Assembly: GCF_000355765.4 (NCBI RefSeq)
Contig: NZ_CP021106.3
Location: forward strand, 3,009,137-3,073,136
Length of the DNA: 64,000 nucleotides
From: Nitrosospira lacus
GTDB lineage: Bacteria; Pseudomonadota; Gammaproteobacteria; Burkholderiales; Nitrosomonadaceae
Direction of reading: 5' to 3'
Below the pieces are notes generated by a model. The model did no database searches. It was not told where the DNA came from and worked only from the letters and a program-made list of their open reading frames with translations. Below, one piece after another: positions 6,447 through 32,896 of this stretch (the first letter of the stretch is position 1; each line of letters starts with the position of its first letter). Made by a program: the position numbers and the translations under genes.

Positions 6447-6660
6447 AGGTTGGACGGGAGAATTTCTAGTCTAATTCCTGGCTTGGCGCTGTGATAGCGG
6501 TGTGAAAGTGGCGAAGTGCTCAAGCTAAATATGGAAATAATCAATAACATTAATCACTTGCTTGGGGCAATTTAAAGCAAACCCTCAAACCCGGTTCAAA
6601 GCTCAAAACTGCGCTCGGTAACTTCTGATGATATTGATGTTACCGTTACGTTTACTGTCA

Positions 6661-6742
6661 GATTGCAATAACCATGCTCGGACAACAAAAAACCCGCAAG
6701 CGTTTATCCTTGCGGGCTCTCTGGACTTCTTTGGAATACTTA
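6661..6742. repeat. Left boundary repeat of the older element (att relic)
   Basis: This ~82-bp stretch shares most of its sequence with 12809-12900: GATTGCAATAACCATG, then ACAACAAAAAACCCGCAAG, a terminator hairpin, and CTGGACTTCTTTGGA. The second copy has a ~10-bp insertion. At 12.9 kb the repeat abuts a copy of the tmRNA 3' end, so I infer that both copies derive from the region downstream of ssrA and mark an earlier integration. After 6742 the sequence diverges (AATTGGCGGCG) from the ssrA end. Confidence 0.65.
6693..6716. terminator. Hairpin terminator in left repeat
   Basis: CCCGCAAG / CTTGCGGG stem with an 8-base loop, flanked by an A-run on the left that reads as TTTTTTG on the minus strand. 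It closes the leftward komABC transcript, 224 bp beyond the komC stop, and is homologous to the hairpin at 12847-12878. Confidence 0.65.
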
Positions 6743-6939
6743 TGACATTTAATTGGCGGCGTCAATTGAATAATGCTCTGAAATGCTTATAGATACTAGC
6801 TTATTCTAGTTCGAGTAAATATAGTTACCGTCAAAGTTACCGCCACAGTCAGAAATGTACCAATAGGCTTACCGTCAACATTTGAGTGGGTTGGCTTTTA
6901 CCGGGAGAGTTGACGGGTGTCATCGGCCATCCGCTGAGA

Positions 6940-7737
6940 TCAAGAATTACCAAGTAATTTGGTAAGGAACTCTTCCAACGCTTCAGCTAGGTTATCTTTT
7001 TCCGATGTGATCATCTTTATGCCCCATTCCTTAAAAATCGCCTCCTGTACTACATTCGGCTGGGGATAAAATATGTAAGATCGTGGCCGAACATCTGAAA
7101 GCGAAGTACTTTGCCACATTTTTGACAACTTATAAAAAATAAATCTCAGATTGATATCGGAAAGACTATAGCCAATAAAGAGAACCCCCTTACCAAGCAC
7201 ATCGGATCGTAATTTGATGTCAAGGGGTGTTTCGAACTCTAGCCGTTCAAAATAACTAGTTTGAGTTAAAACGATTGAATTATCGTCATCAAAATCTCCG
7301 TGAAACTTGACAATTTGGGTTTGGTTATCTTTAATTTTAGTTAGGTCGGCAACAGAAGCTATTTTGAGGTAATCTTTTCCATGGCAATCAAAAGCTCGTT
7401 CAAGCCATCTATCATAGTTTGTGGTGTAAATGATAGGAAATTGTAGGGAGCAAATGAGTTGATGAATCTTTGAGTTTTCAATCTTAACGTTGCTAGAATG
7501 CCATTGCTGATCCATCCAACTCCGTAGTGGTCCAACGCTACCTTTTTTGATTCGATAATACTCAGCTAAAGCGTAAAAATCTCCCAATGTTCTGTAAACA
7601 TCAGGATCATAATCAAGTTCTTTTGCAACGTGGTTGATTAAAGTCTCCGAGGATGGAAGGCCTAAGTTCATGGAAACGCCAGCCCCAGCGAACAACATAA
7701 TGTCGCCGTTTTTTATAGCTGCGGCAAGTTTCTCCAT
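6940..7737 (-). CDS. komC: SIR2-like NADase effector, KomC-like
   Basis: A 265-residue SIR2-like protein (SIR2_2 type). Visible motifs are GAGVS (18-22), TTNYD with Asn107, KFHGD with His146, and GYSLSD, the NAD-binding and catalytic set of defence SIR2 proteins. Such proteins hydrolyse NAD+ and stop infected cells. It is the third gene of a leftward operon; its ATG shares one base with the komB stop. There is no deacetylase zinc motif and no extra domain. In the Kongming system KomC pairs with the HAM1-like KomB and is switched on by a deoxynucleotide signal (recalled from the literature). The name is assigned by domain and gene order. Confidence 0.85.
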
Positions 7738-8291
7738 TAAAGACTCCTGAACTTAAGGAATTCAATAAATCCATCAAACGCGATTTTTCGCATGGAAATC
7801 GTATTTTTCCTCTCCCCCATTTCAGCGAACGTTTCCTCAGCGCCTTCAGGGACGAAAACACAATCCCACTGGAAGTCTTGGGATCCTCTCGGTGAGGACG
7901 CGATAGCGCCCTTTATTTCACCTGAAAATAAATAGATTTTTCGACCATCACAGTAGCCAATGACCGTTTTCGCCACCACATCGGTATTGGAGGCATTGCC
8001 AAAAAGTGTTGAAAAGTGAGCTGCCTGCAATTTATCCCAAAAAATTTGCGTTAGACCGCCGGGAAGTCCATTTAATCGGCTTAGATAAAGTCCAGTATGT
8101 TCGACGAAAACAGGTCGTCCAACTAGCAAGAAGGCTTTTAGTAATTTGTCTCGGACAAGCTTATCTACGTTCTCAGTTTGCAGCTCGTCTATCTTATGAT
8201 GAGACCCAATAACTTCGATTCCTGCAGGGGATAGTATTTCCTTAACTTCCTTTACCTTTAACTCATTTCTAGACACAAACCGAACCTTCAT
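7737..8291 (-). CDS. komB: HAM1/ITPA-like nucleotide sensor, KomB-like
   Basis: A 184-residue HAM1-fold protein. [14 protein letters not shown] matches the N-terminal SxNxxK motif; EHTGL (64-68) stands where active enzymes have (E/D)D(T/S)GL; GLPGG and [10 protein letters not shown] match ITPA's GLPG and QDFGWDPCF; and NTISMR replaces NxVSHR. The usual catalytic Asp is therefore His65, and two substrate-pocket residues are changed, which suggests binding rather than hydrolysis of (d)ITP-like nucleotides. The gene overlaps komA by 4 bp (ATGA) and komC by 1 bp. A housekeeping RdgB is unlikely given the operon and the substitutions. Confidence 0.85.
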
Positions 8292-9265
8292 TTTATTAGC
8301 CTCAAGAAGCTGTGTTCTTTTTGCACTGAATACATTGTTTCGAGCAAATCTGGTCTGCCTGATTCTTCAAGAAAAGCTAAGTAGTCTTCACTCATGTTTG
8401 CCTGATGAAGCCCAGGATTGTCTGAGCAGATGACGAAGGGTACATCATGTTGAATGAATTTAACTAAAGGATGGGCTTCGCTAGCGGGAACGGAACCAGT
8501 CATACGGTTGCTAATAGGACAAACCTCAACGCAGATATTGCGATCACGGAGTAGACCCATTGTCTCTTCACTTTTTCCAGCAGCAGTGCCGTGCCCAATT
8601 CTGTCAGCGCCAAACTCTTTTACAGCTCGGTGAATATTTCCTACGTTGCCAGTTTCCCCTGCATGGATAGTTACTCCCAAACCGTGATACTCCTTTGCTC
8701 TCATGAAAAGGCCTGCAAGTTCGGGGGGAGTGTATTCCTCTTCATTTCCGGCTAGGTCTACTCCGATCACCGTCTTAGGCTTTCCCAAGTGCTCGTAGGC
8801 GACTAATAGCGTGCGCAGATTTTCTGCACTGTAATTACCCCGTGACACCGTCATAATTACTCCCGCCCTGATGGAGTATGTCTTAGATGCATTCTCAACT
8901 TCTTCAATAAGCCAACGGAGAGCCTCTGAAACCTTAATTCTATTCAGTAGCGAAATGTAAATTACGCTACTTCTAATTTCTGCAAACGATGTATTTTGGG
9001 CTTGCAACTGGTTGAATGCACTTATTACCATTAATCTAAGACTGTTGCGACTCCTAGGGATCAGGCGTAAAACGTTCCACTCGGCAAGATATTCTTCTAA
9101 ATTAGCGCAAGGAGTATTTCTTCGCAGCGCATTTTCTAGGTCAACAGCGGCTGTTTCCTCAGCCGCCTCTGAGCGCAGCAAATCAATAATGACCGATCTC
9201 TCAACAAGTCCGTTTAGATGAACATGTAGCTCCCCTTTGGGTAGTGTTCGGATTCTGTGAATCAT
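8288..9265 (-). CDS. komA: Adenosine/deoxyadenylate deaminase-like protein, KomA-like
   Basis: A 325-residue amidohydrolase of the adenosine deaminase family. I choose ATG 9265 because a G-run (GGGGGGGG) lies about 7 bases upstream and the family motif ELHVHLNG starts at once; the longer frame to 9352 adds 29 residues that do not look conserved. Zinc/catalytic motifs: HVH (14-16), HAGE (His201), GHGTA and SDNPG (Asp282). Two positions differ from classical ADA: HLHLDG is HVHLNG, and the DD pair before Pro is DN. In Kongming, KomA makes the deaminated purine deoxynucleotide that, after a phage kinase acts, triggers KomBC. First gene of the operon. Confidence 0.85.
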
Positions 9266-9352
9266 TGAAATTCCCCCCCCATGAATCACTATCGATATCA
9301 CAGCTAAAATATCTAGGCATTCCAGATCTCGTAATTTCCTGTTCGGGTCCAT

Positions 9353-9906
9353 ACCGGAGTACCGATCGCTTGAAAGACTTGAATGGCTGGTTTTGAGCTA
9401 TTGTGATAAAACTCTTTTTTAGAGCTTGAAAATCATTGCTTCAAAACGCTCGCCTTATAGGAACAGCTTACAAAACTACCTACGCGTTGAGTTAAATGAA
9501 ATGATTTGACGCACGCATAAATTCTATCTGAAATGATGACGAAAGGGTTTTTTTTTCAACAGCAGAGGTCAAATCGAATAGGTCGAATTGATCCTTCGCG
9601 AATAGCGCAGTTGTATTGCTTTAAGACTTTTGCAACAGGCAGAAATGCGCCAAAACCGGCCCATCAGATCTAAGTTTGAGCCTTAGCCGGCGAGCTAGCC
9701 TGATGCATCGATTAACACTATTTTTAATTATTGCTATGTGTGTTTCTCACCCGTAAATAGCTCTTCGTCATTTTCTATTGATTAGAGCAGCTTGAGCTGT
9801 TAGTGTTCGATTCCATATATCCGTAGCCCCGTGTGATATCAAGGGGGAATCAAATATAGGGCGTTTATGCGTCATTTTTTTGTCTACATTACGTTAGCTT
9901 TAAGAC
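9353..9906. promoter_or_regulatory. Intergenic region between divergent komABC and DUF2971 genes
   Basis: About 550-640 bp, AT-richer than the flanks, with no plausible gene on either strand. It must hold the promoters of both transcription units. I see no clear operator repeat, and no regulator gene lies beside it. Confidence 0.4.
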
Positions 9907-10785
9907 ATGAGCATGCTGTATCACTATACCAGCCAGACCGGTATTATCGGAATTATCCAGAGCCGCAGTATCTGGGCTACTCACGCTATGGCATTAAACG
10001 ATTCAAGTGAGTTCTTTCATAGCTTATCCTTCGCCCGAGAAGTGGCCAACGGCATCTTTGAGGATGATGGCTATCTGAGCGCCTTCGGATGGGCTGTTCA
10101 CCACTCACTAGAGTCGGTTTCCGCTGACGATCTTTACCTGACGTCGTTCAGCGAGAAGCCCGATCTGCTCAGCCAGTGGCGAGGCTACTGCCCTGCAGGT
10201 GCTGGGCTTTGCCTAGGCTTCGATTCCAACGATCTGGAAACTTTCTGTGAGCGTCAAGGTTATAAGCTAGAGAAGTGTATTTACGAACACCAGGATCAGA
10301 TTAAACAGATTCATGACCTTGTTGAGCGCTGCTTGAATAGATTTCCAAAGCCACCCTTGAGCCGCGACGAATACAAAGCCCTCACTTCGAAAGAGCAGGT
10401 CAACTTTGAACTAGACTACCGACTTCGCACCTCGCAAGGCCCTGATAAGCTGGAAGCGGATGCCGCTGTAACATGGCTCTGCGCAGAAATTGCCAAGCTC
10501 GCACCTCAGTTTAAGAACGAGGGATTTCACGAGGAAGCAGAATGGCGAATCATAGCAAAAGAACCGAAGGAACAGGTTAAGTTCCGCGCCAGTTCGTCAT
10601 ATTTAGCGCCGTATGTGGGTTTAGAAATACTCATCAGCGCAGCTAACACCACGCTACGTGAGGTAATCATCGGCCCAAATCCGAACCAGGCCCGCTGTGA
10701 GGCGTCTGTTAAGGCGTTACTGACAACAACTGGTCTCGATGATGTTGAGTTGAGGCGATCATCTCTGCCATACAACAATTGGTGA
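9907..10785 (+). CDS. DUF2971 domain protein
   Basis: A 292-residue protein with the DUF2971 signature: LYHYTS at residues 4-9, SRSIWATHAMALNDSSEF, LTSFSEKPDLLSQWRGYC and LCLGFDSN, and near the end HEEAEWRII. The H-Y-T ... S ... W-R-Y ... E pattern resembles ADP-ribosyltransferase-like folds; I put this forward only as inference, since the family is formally of unknown function. It reads away from komA and is followed 37 bp later by the 5'-nucleotidase gene, so the two likely form one transcript. DUF2971 genes are often cargo of mobile elements. Confidence 0.8.
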   Translation: MSMLYHYTSQTGIIGIIQSRSIWATHAMALNDSSEFFHSLSFAREVANGIFEDDGYLSAFGWAVHHSLESVSADDLYLTSFSEKPDLLSQWRGYCPAGAGLCLGFDSNDLETFCERQGYKLEKCIYEHQDQIKQIHDLVERCLNRFPKPPLSRDEYKALTSKEQVNFELDYRLRTSQGPDKLEADAAVTWLCAEIAKLAPQFKNEGFHEEAEWRIIAKEPKEQVKFRASSSYLAPYVGLEILISAANTTLREVIIGPNPNQARCEASVKALLTTTGLDDVELRRSSLPYNNW

Positions 10786-10822
10786 TCAATCAAGTAAAGC
10801 TGGAACTAACGGTTAAATTTGT

Positions 10823-11779
10823 ATGGCATACCCTATTGAAAGGAAGCTCGTAGTCGGCATTGCGTCAAGTGCACTGTTTGATCTGTCGGAGTCGCATAAG
10901 ATATACGAAACCGAGGGTATTAACGACTACCGCATTCACCAAGAGAAGAACATTGATAACCCATTCCCCAAGGGCGTTGCATTCCCATTTATTCGACGCT
11001 TTCTGAGCATCAACAAGGCGTTTCCAAAACAATCCCCGGTAGAGGTCGTGCTACTCTCGCGAAATTCGCCTGAAACAGGATTAAGGGTGTTTCGATCAAT
11101 TAAGCATTACGGCCTTGATGTGACACGTGCAGCGTTCATGACCGGGCGCTCGCCCCATGAATACCTGCCTGCGTTCAATGCATCTCTATTCTTAAGCGCC
11201 AATGAAGATGATGTTAGAGAAGCCATAGATACAAATTATCCAGCTGGGGTGGTCCTCCCTTCGAAAGTTTACGACGATGAGCTTGATACTGAGTTACGCG
11301 TTGCATTCGACTTTGATGGTGTTATCGCCGACGATGAAGCTGAGTCTGTGTATAAAAAGAACAATGATCTGATCGAATTTCAAGCGCACGAATCCAAAAG
11401 GCAATCCATTCCACATCAGCCAGGACCACTTGCTGATTTGTTTAAAAAGCTATCCTTCATGCAGAAATTAGAAGAAAAACAGCTCGGGGAAGATCCCTCG
11501 TACAAGAAAATAGTACGGATTGCGATCGTAACTGCACGTAATGCTCCGTCCCATGAACGGGTTGTCACTACTTTGAAAACTTGGGGTGTCTCTGCCGATG
11601 AGTCATTCTTTTTGGGGGGGATGGAAAAGTCTCGAATTCTGACTATCCTAAAGCCTCATATGTTTTTTGATGATCAGCGCAGCCATTTGCAGTCTCCTGC
11701 CGGTGACATTCCAATGGTTCATATTCCTTTTGGGATAGCAAACAACAAGCTCACATCTCATTCAACTGCGTCTGAGTGA
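10823..11779 (+). CDS. 5'-nucleotidase, cytosolic cN-I type
   Basis: A 318-residue protein of the bacterial/cN-I 5'-nucleotidase family (Pfam '5'-nucleotidase' type). Motifs: KLVVGIASSALFDL near the N-terminus, LLSRNSPETGLRVF, then AFDFDGVIADDEAE with the HAD nucleophile-type DxDGV, VTARNAP, and LGGMEKSRIL...MFFDDQ. These enzymes remove the 5' phosphate from nucleoside monophosphates including IMP and dNMPs. Immediate neighbours are the DUF2971 gene and, divergently, an operon that would use deaminated deoxynucleotides, so a link through nucleotide pools is possible but unproven. Confidence 0.85.
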   Translation: MAYPIERKLVVGIASSALFDLSESHKIYETEGINDYRIHQEKNIDNPFPKGVAFPFIRRFLSINKAFPKQSPVEVVLLSRNSPETGLRVFRSIKHYGLDVTRAAFMTGRSPHEYLPAFNASLFLSANEDDVREAIDTNYPAGVVLPSKVYDDELDTELRVAFDFDGVIADDEAESVYKKNNDLIEFQAHESKRQSIPHQPGPLADLFKKLSFMQKLEEKQLGEDPSYKKIVRIAIVTARNAPSHERVVTTLKTWGVSADESFFLGGMEKSRILTILKPHMFFDDQRSHLQSPAGDIPMVHIPFGIANNKLTSHSTASE

Positions 11780-11959: not shown

Positions 11960-12420
11960 ACTTTAACCGTAACAGCGGTAACAATTCGCATAAGACACGG
12001 GCAACGCCCAATTCATAGGGTATTCCGCGTTACCGCAAAATGGTACCGGTTCGAATATATCGGGTAACGGCGGTAACGGTCTCTGGCTTAAGGCGAGTTA
12101 CTACGCGAAATTGGAGCAAGGGGCGGCTTGTTTAGCGCTGGTACCGGTACGATAATGGAAGCAAGATACATTAAACGCCTCCCTGTAACGGTAACGGTTA
12201 CAGTTACAATTACAGTAACAGCGGCGTGATGCATCCCTGTAACGGTAACAGTGCCGGAATGCGTCAAGATTCTCTGTAACGGTAACAGGAACAGATGCAG
12301 TAGAAATTGCCGTAACGCTATGACGTGTTACCAGCGGGCATAGCGCGGTAACATCGGCGTTACACGAAGAACTAAACCCATATTGAATGTTACCGCGTTA
12401 CCGCTGTTACATCGGTAATC
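11960..12420. repeat. Dense GTAAC/GTTAC motif array, iteron-like
   Basis: I count about 22 GTAAC or GTTAC pentamers in roughly 460 bp, against about one expected by chance. They are often doubled as GGTAACGG or GTAACGGTAAC. CTGTAACGGTAAC recurs at 12183, 12237 and 12274; GTTACCGCGTTACC lies near 12389. The array starts at the 3' end of a primase/helicase remnant, which suggests a relic replication origin with initiator-binding sites. A few similar motifs lie at the other end of this element (6640-6880). No plausible gene overlaps it. Confidence 0.7.
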
Positions 12421-12424
12421 GCGC

Positions 12425-12738
12425 TTACTCTCCCTCATTCCCGTACCGGATAACATAGACTCTGGATGATGAACTTAATCCAGGGAGTCGTGCAACCTGC
12501 GAAGGTTTGCCGTCATTGCCAGGAAGCAGCAATCCCGCTTTTATCAAGACGTTCTTAACATCTTTTCGTCAAACCCTTGGCAGACCTCCTGGCGGAATGT
12601 TTCCGGCAATACCAGAAACTCTCGCCCCTCATTTACCCCATTCCGGTAGAAGCCTGCCCGTTTAAGGATACGCTGGTCGATTGTGGCGCTGATATCTTCA
12701 AAACGACTTGCGCCATGCGTCTCGAAAAAACCCCGCAT
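12425..12738 (-). pseudogene. C-terminal remnant of a P4-type (DUF927-like) primase/helicase, frameshifted
   Basis: On the minus strand 12738 to about 12552 translates as FFETHGASRFEDI...EFLVLPETFRQEVCQGFDEK, the familiar C-terminal part of DUF927-type replication proteins of integrated elements. After a +1 shift near 12560 the reading continues as NVLIKAGLLLPGNDGKP...RVYVIRYGNEGE and a stop at 12425, which completes that domain. The rest of the gene is gone: the 5' side runs directly into the boundary repeat at 12.8 kb. It marks the former replication module of the older element. Confidence 0.65.
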
Positions 12739-12808
12739 GAGGTAGGGGGTCAGGTCTTGCTATTTGCCATAATCCGCCGGTCGGTATCATGACGGTAACT
12801 TATCGTCG

Positions 12809-12900
12809 GATTGCAATAACCATGTTTGGACGTAATTGGACAACAAAAAACCCGCAAGCTTTTATTCATGCGGGTTTTCTGGACTTCTTTGGACTACTTA
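12809..12900. repeat. Right boundary repeat of the older element
   Basis: Partner of 6661-6742, with the same order: GATTGCAATAACCATG, A-run, hairpin, CTGGACTTCTTTGGA. It lies directly next to the partial tmRNA end at 12912, so it probably represents the original sequence downstream of ssrA including its terminator. Confidence 0.65.
12847..12878 (-). terminator. Hairpin terminator, probably the ancestral tmRNA terminator
   Basis: A 10-bp stem AAAACCCGCA / TGCGGGTTTT with a 12-base loop; T-runs lie on both sides, so it can work in either direction. Its place just downstream of the tmRNA-end copy suggests it once terminated ssrA. Confidence 0.7.
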
Positions 12901-12911
12901 GGGCACTTCAT

Positions 12912-12943
12912 TGGTGGAGGCGGCGGGAATCGAACCCGCGTCC
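12912..12943. repeat. att site: 32-bp copy of the tmRNA 3' end
   Basis: Thirty-two bases identical to 32535-32566, the last 32 nt of the ssrA gene including CCA. After 12943 the sequence departs from ssrA. With an integrase gene beside the intact ssrA, this is the distal attachment site of the 19.6 kb element. AATACCCCC at 13001 and 13013 may be arm-type integrase sites. Confidence 0.88.
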
Positions 12944-14920: not shown

Positions 14921-15241
14921 CTACAACGCGGACCTTGGTGGCCACTTGCCAACAATCTTCACACCACCGTCTTTCCTTGCTGCTGGCTTCTTCGCAGTGT
15001 CTTTTTTTGCTGCTGGCTTCTTCGCAGTGTCTTTTTTTGCTGCTGGCTTCTTCGCAGCGTCTTTTTTTGCTGCTGGCTTCTTCGCAGCGTCTTTTTTTGC
15101 TGCTGGCTTCTTCGCAGTGTCTTTCTTTGCTGCTGGCTTCTTCGCAGTGTCTTTTTTTGCTGCTGGCTTCTTCGCAGTGTCTTTCTTTGCTGCTGGCGTG
15201 GTAGCGGCTTTCTTTACTGCTGGCTTCTTTGATGTTGGCAT
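14921..15241 (-). CDS. Lys/Ala-rich tandem-repeat protein, histone H1-like
   Basis: A 106-residue protein starting MPTSKKPAVKKAATTPA at ATG 15241, preceded by AAGGGGA at about 6 bases. The body consists of seven or eight 10-residue repeats AAKKDTAKKP, with AAKKDAAKKP in two, encoded by 30-bp tandem repeats; the C-terminus is GGVKIVGKWPPRSAL. Such AAKKP arrays are typical of bacterial H1-like or AlgP-like DNA-binding tails. All frames are open through the array because the repeat length is a multiple of three; this frame is chosen by ribosome site and composition. Copy number is likely to vary. Confidence 0.7.
   Translation of the reverse strand: MPTSKKPAVKKAATTPAAKKDTAKKPAAKKDTAKKPAAKKDTAKKPAAKKDAAKKPAAKKDAAKKPAAKKDTAKKPAAKKDTAKKPAARKDGGVKIVGKWPPRSAL
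14972..15200. repeat. 30-bp tandem repeat inside the Lys/Ala-rich gene
   Basis: The unit (for example TTTGCTGCTGGCTTCTTCGC followed by AGTGTCTTTT) is repeated about 7.5 times with point changes that alternate Thr and Ala codons. It is a likely site of slippage. Confidence 0.85.
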
Positions 15242-15463
15242 ACAAGTCCCCTTGGTCAAATGGTTAAGGTGATGTAAAGCCCCAACAGTTTATTGCAGGG
15301 CGCTTGCATCCAGATATTTTTATAGCGCTGCCACGCATGATGCCATTGTGTATTGTTAATGTGCAATCGTTTTATTGCCCGTCATCCTTGCATCATCGCC
15401 AATAATACTGACAGGTGAAAGGCAGCTATTGGCACATTTCTGCCGGATGGAGCCCGTTCCAAT

Positions 15464-20928: not shown

Positions 20929-23433
20929 TTAAAGGGGGAGATTCACCGCGACAACTCGCCAAGCTGTTCGCCCATCCGCTTCCGATTTCTGGAATTCAAG
21001 CCCTTTGACGATCCGGTTCGCATGCTTCTTCAAGAGCCAGCCAAGCTTTGAGCGATTGACCTCACCTCTTTCTTCCACAGGAAATTCACGTATTGCATCG
21101 AGAAGATCGGAATTCCCCCGTTGCGCCACCTCTACAACCTTGCGTACCGTAATGGCTGTCGATCCGAATGCAGCGTGCCATTGGGTCATCAGCCCCGCGA
21201 GCGCATCTCCGTCCGGGTCGTGCTTGACTTGTTCAAGGAGCGCCGTAGCGGGATCACAATGCCCAAGCCACATCAGCGGATGCCGGCAATAGTCTGACCA
21301 TGCGCCGCCAAAGGTCACAATGCTTTCAACGGGAGCACGCGGTGAGCCCGCCCTGCGCCATGCCAGAATAATGGTCAGCACAGCAGCTACATATAATCCC
21401 CGTTGTTTGCGTACCCTTTCGACGGGAAAACTTTTATACGTCATCGTGGCGGGTGTTGAACATCGGGGGTCGATGTGAATCGTCACAATGCGCCGCAGAA
21501 GATCACGTACCGGGCCAACGTTATTTCCAGAGCCTAAAAACAGAGTGCGCGTGCTTACTGTCGCCGTCTTACTCACCCCCAAAATCCGGTCAGTGATCTG
21601 CTCAGCCGTCAGCATTCTCTTAATGGTGCCGTGCGGTATCCAGTCGGTGTCCATGTCATCGAACTCAATAACCGCTGGGCTGGTCAGCAGCAACGACAGA
21701 ATAACTTTGGTGGCTTCTTCCGATGTGGTGGGATAACTCACTTTTGCATTTCCGGCAGGCCCGGCAAAAGCGCCAATAAGCTCGCAAAGATAAGTTTTTC
21801 CGCTACCAAAAATCGGTGCTTTGACGTGAAATCCAGGGGCATGAGCCAACGTGGGTCGCACTACAGCGGTGAAGATGGCCGAAAGCGCAGCGGCTTTATC
21901 TGCGGCTCCGACGAAGTGAAACTCGTTAAGCAACTCTTCCAGCAGGGCCAGCGCCGCCCGTGCCGCTTCAACTGTCGGTTCCTCGATGACAAATTGACGC
22001 GAGTCGAAGACACCGAAGCGCTGCGATGTTTTGTCATAACCGGCCTGTGTAATCAACTCCCCGTCTGACTCGCGAAAATACGGTTGTCTCGCGACGCCTT
22101 TTAGGGGTGGCAAGTGACGAAAGTTCTGGGCGTCGTAAAGAATGGCAACGTGCCGCTGGGGGGGATCAGAACGAACCCAATCTTCCGCGCGCCCATCGTA
22201 TTTTTCCCATGTCGCCGCGACCGACAGCTCCCTTGTCAGCGCCGGTGCGCTGGTCGGAATAATCGAAGGATCTCCGGTGGTCGGGTCGGTGGAGACGGAA
22301 ACAATCAAGCCGCCTGCCTGATAATGTCGCCTACGATCCGCCAATTCTTTTTCTGCCGCATCAATTACCCGGTGCAAATCACCGGCGACCACGCGGATGA
22401 CCGGTTTATGCCGTGCCTCGTCATTGCGAATGCCCAGGAATTCGAGCAACTGGCGAATGTGGATCTTCTCCCGGTGCGAGTGCTGGCAGCAGAATCCACC
22501 CAGGGGATATAGCTCGTCGGGTTCAAAATAGGCAGCGCCGGTGTCAAGGCCATCGGTATGCTCGTAGACCCATGGGCAGGTGATGTCGTGCTTGCCTGAG
22601 CCCAATGGCGTTTTGTAAAGTCCTCGTGCCTTGAAGGCAGCCACTACCGGATTTTCCGCAGCCTTGGGCGTCAACACATCATCAGCATCCTTGCCCATGC
22701 TGCGCCGGTTATCCTCAGAGAGTTTAGCTTCCTTCTTTGGCCGCCCAGCCGGTGCGAGTTCCAATTGCAGACGATCCACAATTTCTTGTGGCGTGTAGCG
22801 CTTTTCAGGGCGCCATTCGATTAGGCGGCAGCGAAACGGCTCACCCGCATCGTTGGCATATTTTAGTTTGCCATTGATTGCGACAGGAAGGCGTGCCCAT
22901 CGGCTTAATGGCCCGGTTGCGTTAGGGTCGCAAAGGCCAGCGTCAATCACGGCGGTAAGTAGCCGCACAGCCGCAGCACCATCGGTGATAGGATCAGCGA
23001 GAATGATCCCGCCCTGATGATTGCCCGGGCTCGTCTCGATCAGCCAGGACAATTCAAAACCCGCCAGCCGATCAAACGAAACCTTGGTGCCAAGATCGTC
23101 CAGCATCAGAAAATGGCAGGCGGCGAACCGGTCTTTACGCGCCTTGAATGAGCCGTCATCGCCGGGATAGAAGCTCGAACAACCGACGTAATTGTTATGC
23201 CCGGCAGAAAGATTGTCGACGACTTGTTCAGAGCTGTTTGCTGTCCATCCGCCGTTGCCAGGATCATGGGGCTTGGAACAGACCGCCGTGAACGCAGCTT
23301 CGGGCAATTTCTGAAATATAGCTGCGACAAATTCAGCGTTCGTAATCTTGAAATCACCACCTTTGCCGCCTTTACCGGCTTCGTCCGGCTCGGAAGCTGA
23401 AACTGTCAGCATATTGGTTGTCATGGTCGCCAC
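20929..23433 (-). CDS. Replication primase/helicase-like protein of the integrative element
   Basis: An 834-residue protein. The N-terminal third has a RepB/primase-like domain (HFLMLDDLGTKVSFDRL, SWLIETSPGNHQGGIILADP, PLSRWARLPVAING), a central Zn-like segment (TCPWVYEHTDG, FCCQHSHREK), and the C-terminal half an AAA+/DUF927-like helicase with Walker A APIFGSGKTYL, Walker B PAVIEFDDMD and sensor region TRTLFLGSGNNVGPVRDLLRR. It would initiate and unwind element replication. It starts 4 bp after the alpA stop, so the two are coupled. Full length and intact, unlike the remnant at 12.4 kb. Confidence 0.8.
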   Translation of the reverse strand: MATMTTNMLTVSASEPDEAGKGGKGGDFKITNAEFVAAIFQKLPEAAFTAVCSKPHDPGNGGWTANSSEQVVDNLSAGHNNYVGCSSFYPGDDGSFKARKDRFAACHFLMLDDLGTKVSFDRLAGFELSWLIETSPGNHQGGIILADPITDGAAAVRLLTAVIDAGLCDPNATGPLSRWARLPVAINGKLKYANDAGEPFRCRLIEWRPEKRYTPQEIVDRLQLELAPAGRPKKEAKLSEDNRRSMGKDADDVLTPKAAENPVVAAFKARGLYKTPLGSGKHDITCPWVYEHTDGLDTGAAYFEPDELYPLGGFCCQHSHREKIHIRQLLEFLGIRNDEARHKPVIRVVAGDLHRVIDAAEKELADRRRHYQAGGLIVSVSTDPTTGDPSIIPTSAPALTRELSVAATWEKYDGRAEDWVRSDPPQRHVAILYDAQNFRHLPPLKGVARQPYFRESDGELITQAGYDKTSQRFGVFDSRQFVIEEPTVEAARAALALLEELLNEFHFVGAADKAAALSAIFTAVVRPTLAHAPGFHVKAPIFGSGKTYLCELIGAFAGPAGNAKVSYPTTSEEATKVILSLLLTSPAVIEFDDMDTDWIPHGTIKRMLTAEQITDRILGVSKTATVSTRTLFLGSGNNVGPVRDLLRRIVTIHIDPRCSTPATMTYKSFPVERVRKQRGLYVAAVLTIILAWRRAGSPRAPVESIVTFGGAWSDYCRHPLMWLGHCDPATALLEQVKHDPDGDALAGLMTQWHAAFGSTAITVRKVVEVAQRGNSDLLDAIREFPVEERGEVNRSKLGWLLKKHANRIVKGLEFQKSEADGRTAWRVVAVNLPL

Positions 23434-31119: not shown

Positions 31120-32373
31120 TCAAGCCGCTTTGGTTTTTAGTGGAATGACCGTTGCACCTCGTTGGGCACCGGCAAGTTGCGTTCCCCACCATTGGAACAA
31201 TTTGACCCGCTCATCGAATCGCTCCCCACGATCATAGGCTCGCGCGACTTCATTGTCGTGGACATGATCAAGGGCAAGCTCCACCACATCGCGGGCAGTG
31301 CCGTGATCGCGCGCAAGGGTAGAAAATGAGCTGCGCCAGCCGTGGGGGGAATGTTTCCCATCGAGCCGCAAAGTTACACGGTACACCTTTTCGATGGATT
31401 CGCGCCCGATGTGCTTGCCTCCGGCGGGGGACGGGAACAAATAACCTTTGGTGCCAAAAACACCCTTCCATTGGCGCAACTCGGCGGCAATTTCCGCGCT
31501 GAGGGGGATGCGGTGGTCAATGAACCGTGAGGTGACTTTCATTTTGGCGCGCGGAATGCTCCAGACTGGCTGGTCGCTTTCAAGGTCGAACTCTTTCCAT
31601 TCCGCATTGGTGACGTTGCCGATGCGTGCCGCTGTGAATGCGCATAGGCGATGCGCCATGCGCACAGACGGGGAAATTCTGGTCATATCGGCGCGGCGCA
31701 AAATGTCACCCAATGCAGCAAATTCCAGCAGGGCAGGCATACGTCCGCTGTCTTTTTTCCGGGGTAGTATCTCACGGGCAGGAAGGGCGGGATTGTCGCG
31801 GCATAGTCCCTTGGCTTGGGCGTAGCGGAACACGCCGTTTAGATGCTGGAGGATACGAGTAGCGGTTTCAAGCACGTCGCGCTTGTGGATATCCTCAACG
31901 GCTTTCGCTACGATGGCAGGGGTGATGCTGGCAATGGGCAGCTTGCCAATTGCGGGGTAGATGTCGCGCTCGAATGCCCGCGACGATTTGATATAATGGC
32001 CTGCGCTCCATTCCTTCTTTTTCATGGTCAGCCATCCGCCAGCGACGGCTTCAAAGGTATTGTCGCTTGATGCGCTGGTTTCCGCACGGTTGATACGGCG
32101 CTGAGTAACCGGGTCTTTATTTTCCCGGAGAAGCGCTTTGACCTCAGTCAGCTCAACACGCGCCGCTGCCAGGGAAACGGCTGGGTAGGTGCCGACAGAG
32201 TAAATTTTCTCCTTGCCGTCAATCCGGTATTTGATGCGCCAGGTGGCACCCCCCGCAGGAGTGATGAAAAGATGCAGACCACCCCCATCTGGGAGCTTCT
32301 TGCCACGCTCCGTTTTCGCAACAAACGCCTTAACGGCTTTATCTGTAAGCTTTCCGCCGATACCCCCAGACAT
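31120..32373 (-). CDS. int: Tyrosine integrase (DUF4102-type) of the ssrA element
   Basis: A 417-residue P4/CP4-57-type integrase. Residues 1-95 are the DUF4102 arm-binding domain (LTDKAVKAFVAKTERGKKLP, GGLHLFITPAGGATWRIKYR). The catalytic part shows RIGN with the first Arg, HGWRSSFSTLARD with His and Arg, and ALDHVHDNEVARAYDRG with the Tyr nucleophile. Integrases of this group often use tRNA or tmRNA ends. The gene starts 161 bp from the tmRNA end, the standard arrangement of integrase next to attachment site. TACCCCC repeats surround its start. Confidence 0.93.
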   Translation of the reverse strand: MSGGIGGKLTDKAVKAFVAKTERGKKLPDGGGLHLFITPAGGATWRIKYRIDGKEKIYSVGTYPAVSLAAARVELTEVKALLRENKDPVTQRRINRAETSASSDNTFEAVAGGWLTMKKKEWSAGHYIKSSRAFERDIYPAIGKLPIASITPAIVAKAVEDIHKRDVLETATRILQHLNGVFRYAQAKGLCRDNPALPAREILPRKKDSGRMPALLEFAALGDILRRADMTRISPSVRMAHRLCAFTAARIGNVTNAEWKEFDLESDQPVWSIPRAKMKVTSRFIDHRIPLSAEIAAELRQWKGVFGTKGYLFPSPAGGKHIGRESIEKVYRVTLRLDGKHSPHGWRSSFSTLARDHGTARDVVELALDHVHDNEVARAYDRGERFDERVKLFQWWGTQLAGAQRGATVIPLKTKAA

Positions 32374-32534: not shown

Positions 32535-32566
32535 TGGTGGAGGCGGCGGGAATCGAACCCGCGTCC
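32535..32566. repeat. att site within the tmRNA 3' end
   Basis: Thirty-two bases identical to 12912-12943; comprises the acceptor-stem 3' strand with CCA and the T-arm of tmRNA. Confidence 0.88.
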
Positions 32567-32896
32567 GCAAGTCCTCTACAGACAGTTCTACATACTTAGC
32601 CATGTTATTTAATTTAACCTGGCATCCGCCAACCGGCGGGCTGATGACAGGCGAGTCACCTATTGTTTAACGCTCTGTAAAGTAACCCTGCGGAGCGCGA
32701 TCCTCGTTAATGGCTCCGCTGTCTGTTGCCAGACCCGGCGTTGAGGCCCACCGGTGCGGAGTCCAGCCGGATTTAAGCGGCTAGAGCGTAACGTTCGTCG
32801 TTTGCGACTATACTTTTCCAGATGTATTTACGAGGTAACTGGTCCTCGGTATGCCCTGCGCTGCTTTGCAACCCACGTCGAAGCCAGGTCGCCCCC
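32535..32896 (-). ncRNA. ssrA: tmRNA (one-piece), tag peptide ANDERYALAA
   Basis: The 5' end GGGGGCGACCTGGCTTCGAC at 32896 pairs with CGCCTCC before ACCA at 32535, giving a 7-bp acceptor stem with one G-U. The T-loop GGGTTCGATTCCCGCC is present. The tag reading frame, 32805 to 32773, reads GCA AAC GAC GAA CGT TAC GCT CTA GCC GCT TAA, that is ANDERYALAA. It rescues stalled ribosomes with SmpB. Its 3' end is the insertion site of the element to the left, and the gene remains complete. Confidence 0.95.

Follow-up and report, generated by a model that had tools for sequence, protein, structure and literature searches.

A GTAAC pentamer array behind a DUF927 gene remnant is a probable relic replication origin of an integrative element at the tmRNA gene of Nitrosospira lacus

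Introduction

The closest described systems are found on the SaPI and SCC islands of staphylococci. The C-terminal domain of SaPI Rep recognizes an origin whose short repeats lie immediately downstream of the rep gene, and the C-terminal domain of the SCC protein Cch2 binds its putative origin, whose pentamer iteron, AAGTG, is needed for Cch2 helicase activity (PMC7581432). The role of DUF927 in mobilizable islands has been described as puzzling or elusive (PMC7449626).

Here we describe a pentamer array from Nitrosospira lacus, identified in a 64,000-nucleotide stretch of the genome (the window), that lies beside what is left of a DUF927 gene. The element to which it belongs resembles that of SaPIbov1 in its DUF927/Cch-type initiator helicase, in the repeats downstream of the helicase gene, and in being an integrated mobile island. 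It differs in that it is proteobacterial, is a tyrosine-integrase element located at the tmRNA gene, and carries ∼20 pentamers that fit G-N-N-A-C-A and occur in mixed orientation; the two proteins share 14% identity over the fold alignment. Phage P4 offers a looser parallel, in that its alpha protein is an initiator that reads short repeats and the satellite is integrated by a related type of integrase, but alpha is a primase-helicase from a different family, its repeats are longer, and ori and crr are separate sites. Cch of SCCmec has a DUF927 domain and is the best fold match (PDB 5dgk), but SCCmec has few repeats and uses serine recombinases. Cch2, although a member of another helicase family, also has a pentamer iteron beside its gene that is required for specific binding and unwinding (PMC7581432).

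Results

A dense pentamer array lies beside a DUF927 gene remnant

The array (11969 to 12410) consists of GTAAC/GTTAC pentamers, present in both orientations and frequently arranged as 6-bp-spaced pairs (GTAACGGTAAC); orientation as such is ambiguous because GTAAC and GTTAC both match GNNAC. A preliminary description of this DNA had reported about 22 copies in 460 bp and three occurrences of CTGTAACGGTAAC, and both counts proved correct, with 22 copies between 11960 and 12420. Sequences of 461 bp resampled with a first-order model contained 2.4 pentamers on average and at most 9 (2,000 trials), no more than 6 fell within any 461 bp of 60 resampled 64-kb windows, and the second-densest 460 bp of the window, at ∼6.4 to 6.9 kb, contains 5. 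Some copies have the appearance of close tandem duplications. As had also been claimed, the array is not explained by any gene: no plausible gene covers it among the open reading frames of the window, and Rfam gave no match there, its only match in the window being the tmRNA gene (32535 to 32896, minus strand).

SaPI origins contain an AT-rich region. In a 60-bp GC scan, no AT-rich melting region stood out in or beside the window array, where GC fractions were 0.40 to 0.58 (mostly 0.45 to 0.55 within the array), so that the array differs from a SaPI-type origin in this trait. For the homologous array of an intact element (locus L114, see below), the values were mostly 0.43 to 0.55, with a single stretch of 0.33 located ∼100 bp past the array.

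A gap of 15 bp separates the array from the stop codon of a frameshifted remnant of a DUF927 initiator-helicase gene on the minus strand (12425 to 12735), which matches DUF927 residues 493 to 554 with 84% identity (E = 3e-30). The earlier designation of this sequence as a primase/helicase remnant therefore holds insofar as a DUF927 gene once stood here, but the upstream part is gone, the DUF927 domain itself is missing, and the C-terminal winged helix is the sole part left. Next to the remnant is a deletion scar (12736 to 12791) at which ∼3.7 kb was lost, comprising the rest of the DUF927 gene, a gene for a 206-aa protein, and most of the integrase gene; positions 12746 to 12777 within the scar are still similar to integrase-proximal sequence of a relative. 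Despite the loss of the DUF927 gene, all 22 pentamer sites were retained. A search of the whole genome recovered no intact DUF927 gene, which makes the array an orphan, expected to be inactive in the absence of a matching protein from elsewhere.

The array belongs to an older element inserted at the tmRNA 3′ end

Beyond the scar lies the integrase-upstream flank of the element (12792 to 12912, with one GTAAC at 12795), followed by an att copy (12913 to 12943), all 31 bp of which recur at the tmRNA 3′ end (32536 to 32566). Together, these sequences (12792 to 12943) show 82 to 91% identity to other copies of the element. The locus thus has the duplicated tmRNA 3′ end of an integrative element, and the tyrosine integrase, lost in the window, is intact in L114. 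Between the att copy and the tmRNA gene (12.9 to 32.5 kb) is a complete younger island, with its own integrase gene (31120 to 32373), restriction-modification-like genes, and a gene for a RepB-type primase (20929 to 23433). We assigned the array to the older element, which lies beyond the second copy of the tmRNA 3′ end. The RepB-primase gene was considered as a partner of the array and rejected, as it belongs to the later island and is not accompanied by an array; it became a negative control. We also observed in this island region a histone-H1-like gene (14921 to 15259, minus strand) in which about nine tandem repeats of 30 bp encode KKDTAKKPAA.

The preliminary description had noted further pentamers near 6640 to 6880. 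These are present (6618, 6639, 6645, 6824, and 6836) but represent two different things, both of them element ends, and we dropped the idea that they form a second origin. The three GTAAC copies at 6618, 6639, and 6645 precede, as the integrase-upstream flank of a still older element, the decayed flank and att of that copy at the same site (6680 to 6759). The GTTAC pair (6824 to 6840) marks the distal, or cargo, end of the relic element, and 6748 to 6847 resembles the distal-end stretch in relatives. Three insertion layers can thus be seen at one tmRNA 3′ end (6600 to 32566): a decayed att at ∼6760, the relic element up to 12943, and the younger island. The cargo of the relic element (6940 to 11779), with SIR2-like, Ham1-like, adenosine deaminase, DUF2971, and 5′-nucleotidase-family genes, resembles nucleotide-targeting defense; the SIR2-like protein is close to ThsA models, the adenosine deaminase to a CARF-ADA model, and the 5′-nucleotidase to candidate PDC-S08, with the Ham1-like and DUF2971 proteins encoded alongside.

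Sister genomes keep the array behind intact DUF927 genes

We searched 60 related genomes at the DNA level for homologs of the array. Homologous arrays, with ∼10 to 23 copies each, were found in seven other genomes (G003, G005, G006, G007, G011, G014, and G017) and shorter pieces in G020 and G021, all confined to the same genus. The adjoining DUF927 gene is broken in G007 and G017 and intact in G003, G006, G011, and G014 (Pfam DUF927, E = 1.8e-103). The preliminary description had staked its proposal on intact elements carrying such an array beside the same gene; in these four genomes, arrays of ∼20 copies lie 14 to 24 bp behind the DUF927 stop codon, which, like the 15 bp in the window, places the repeats directly downstream of the helicase gene as in SaPI/SCC-type origins. 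The element order in relatives is tmRNA-end att, integrase, 206-aa gene, DUF927, array, and cargo, and it is fully intact in G014 (L114), where the array of 21 copies begins 24 bp after a DUF927 gene of 595 codons and is followed by unrelated cargo. Cargo varies between intact copies while the array stays, and a few GTAAC copies are also present in the integrase leader. In an alignment with six relatives, identity to the window was 93% for the pentamers, 70% for the spacers, and 82% for the adjoining coding remnant.

The protein encoded by intact relatives, of which the window keeps the C-terminal remnant only, is predicted to be a helicase of the Cch/SaPIbov1 Rep fold. The predicted model (pLDDT 89) comprises a helicase core and a C-terminal winged helix (residues 484 to 592) with helices at 537 to 544 and 550 to 559, the latter being the predicted recognition helix, and a hairpin at 573 to 589. 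Its best PDB matches by both sequence and fold were 5dgk (SCCmec Cch) and 8tch (SaPIbov1 Rep; fold match, E = 1.7e-21).

DUF927 genes beyond the genus are followed by clade-specific arrays

We further collected 82 DUF927 genes within the same order and class and scanned the 600 bp behind each for repeated 6-mers. At 51 of the 82 loci, the downstream array beat all 60 dinucleotide shuffles, and at 42 it outdid every other window of its own locus. The repeats differ by clade and include, besides GTAAC, GGGACA, GTGACA, GGAACA, GGCACA, GAAACA, GGTACA, and others. In a nonredundant subset of 54 loci, GNNACA ranked first among 1,944 six-letter templates with two free positions (score, 206; mean, 23; runner-up, 145), a rank that is partly fitted, the template having been picked from these very downstream sequences. 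Fairer controls come from the regions upstream of and inside the gene and from RepB-primase genes: GNNACA arrays were found downstream at 23 of 54 loci, upstream at 0 of 45, inside the gene at 0 of 54, and behind RepB-primase genes at 0 of 76 (Fisher, 5e-11). Independently of the template, arrays of any motif lay behind 26 of 54 DUF927 genes versus 4 of 76 RepB-primase genes. The arrays in this DUF927 subset started a median of 38 bp after the stop codon. Most often, then, the arrays behind DUF927 relatives are built on one six-letter template, GNNACA, with clade-specific middle bases. About half of the DUF927 loci had no significant array by this exact-match method; these may have degenerate motifs, an origin elsewhere, or none.

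Across 35 sequences, with phylogeny not removed, winged-helix residues were no more strongly associated with the two variable repeat bases than was the rest of the protein. At one pair of loci, L182 (GAAAC) and L183 (GGCAC), the DUF927 winged helices are similar but the repeats behind the genes differ; the two winged helices diverge notably in the recognition helix and wing, which amounts to a natural experiment on specificity.

DUF927 relatives are also present on small plasmids and phages. On the circular, 14.6-kb plasmid III of Legionella fallonii, a DUF927 gene (57% identity) is the only recognizable replication initiator gene, and nine TGGGACA repeats, the strongest array of the record, lie 7 to 141 bp behind it. 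The strongest array likewise lies just behind DUF927 in a 16-kb Klebsiella circle, Skermanella pSR-7, and phage phiAH14b, as well as in a 7-kb Salmonella record, in which it is made of GTAACA itself. In two weaker cases, an Escherichia coli circle and Methylobacterium nodulans pMNOD05, the array behind DUF927 is real but is not the strongest of the record. The exceptions were a plasmid with its own repM gene, which lacks an array behind DUF927, and one with a candidate array ∼660 bp downstream.

GTAAC repeats also occur in prophage gpA genes

GTAAC/GTTAC clusters, mostly 6 to 12 per 300 bp, were also observed inside P2-gpA-like prophage replication genes, or relics of them, in this genus: in the same genome at L250:9222-9334, L251:7315-7489, L252:7181-7499, and L253:7941-8065, and elsewhere at L254 to L268 and L273. 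They encode a VTVTG linker that precedes the catalytic domain. In the V-T pairs of this linker, 54 of 55 valine codons were GTA or GTT, against 106 of 173 in the remainder of the genes (P = 5e-9). This bias hints at DNA-level selection but could also have arisen by duplication of a linker unit. Since the same pentamer is clustered in unrelated gpA genes, there is room for another GTAAC reader.

Discussion

Taken together, the conservation of the array behind intact DUF927 genes, the predicted fold of the protein, the arrays on free replicons, and the SaPI and Cch2 literature suggest, as the simplest reading, an origin in which GTAAC serves as the iteron for DUF927. The array is thus very probably the iteron replication origin of a small integrative element at the tmRNA 3′ end, left behind after a deletion. 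Its earlier description as a relic origin gains support, on grounds of homology and position, from its place behind DUF927, the free replicons, and the initiator-helicase match, and the finding that intact elements carry the array extends to clade-specific arrays behind DUF927 genes throughout the order and class, as well as to free circular replicons. From the staphylococcal systems, we infer how the element would have replicated. The DUF927 protein would be an AAA+ initiator helicase of the SaPIbov1-Rep/SCC-Cch kind, whose C-terminal winged helix would bind the repeated GTAAC sites; it would assemble on the excised circle and melt the DNA, and replication would then start with the host primase and polymerase. 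The deletion in the window removed the 206-aa gene and most of the integrase and DUF927 genes, with the array staying in place.

In known replicons, iteron arrays double as control sites, and the array might instead serve in copy control, incompatibility, or partition, as a cis-acting site to which the DUF927 protein binds (as with P4 crr or a centromere), with replication starting elsewhere in the element. The extra GTAAC copies near the integrase and at the distal end fit such a role, as does the failure to see an AT-rich melting region. We nevertheless consider it unlikely, since this is the only dense array of the element, its counterpart is the strongest array in most free DUF927 replicons examined, and its place and form are exactly as in SaPI origins (PMC7581432).

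Still less likely is a cluster of operators, bound by an element repressor, for cargo or integrase transcription. The array does lie between DUF927 and the cargo, and a few copies occur in the integrase leader, but the array is kept while the cargo changes, it stands behind the DUF927 gene and not before it, and across orders such arrays track DUF927 and not the unrelated island helicase. Some copies do resemble close tandem duplications, as a neutral local repeat expansion without function would produce; the far higher conservation of pentamers than of spacers, the presence of both orientations, and the recurrence of arrays of other sequence at this position in distant clades make this explanation highly improbable.

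If the array is read as an origin, a broader scheme can be entertained, albeit speculatively. Gram-negative DUF927 initiators might share a G-N-N-A-C-A origin grammar behind the gene, in which the two clade-varying middle bases set replication compatibility or incompatibility; as P2-like prophages of the genus carry the same GTAAC repeats in gpA coding sequence, element and phage might share, or compete for, one initiator. We think this possible but doubtful.

We found no description of the origins of proteobacterial DUF927 elements in the open-access literature; as most subscription papers lay outside the search, the novelty is provisional. DUF927 still carries the label of a domain of unknown function, and a readable origin behind it would provide a direct test of whether such islands replicate after excision. 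Loci with near-identical winged helices and different repeats, such as the L182/L183 pair, are natural pairs for working out specificity, and the origins of DUF927 elements would become predictable from sequence.
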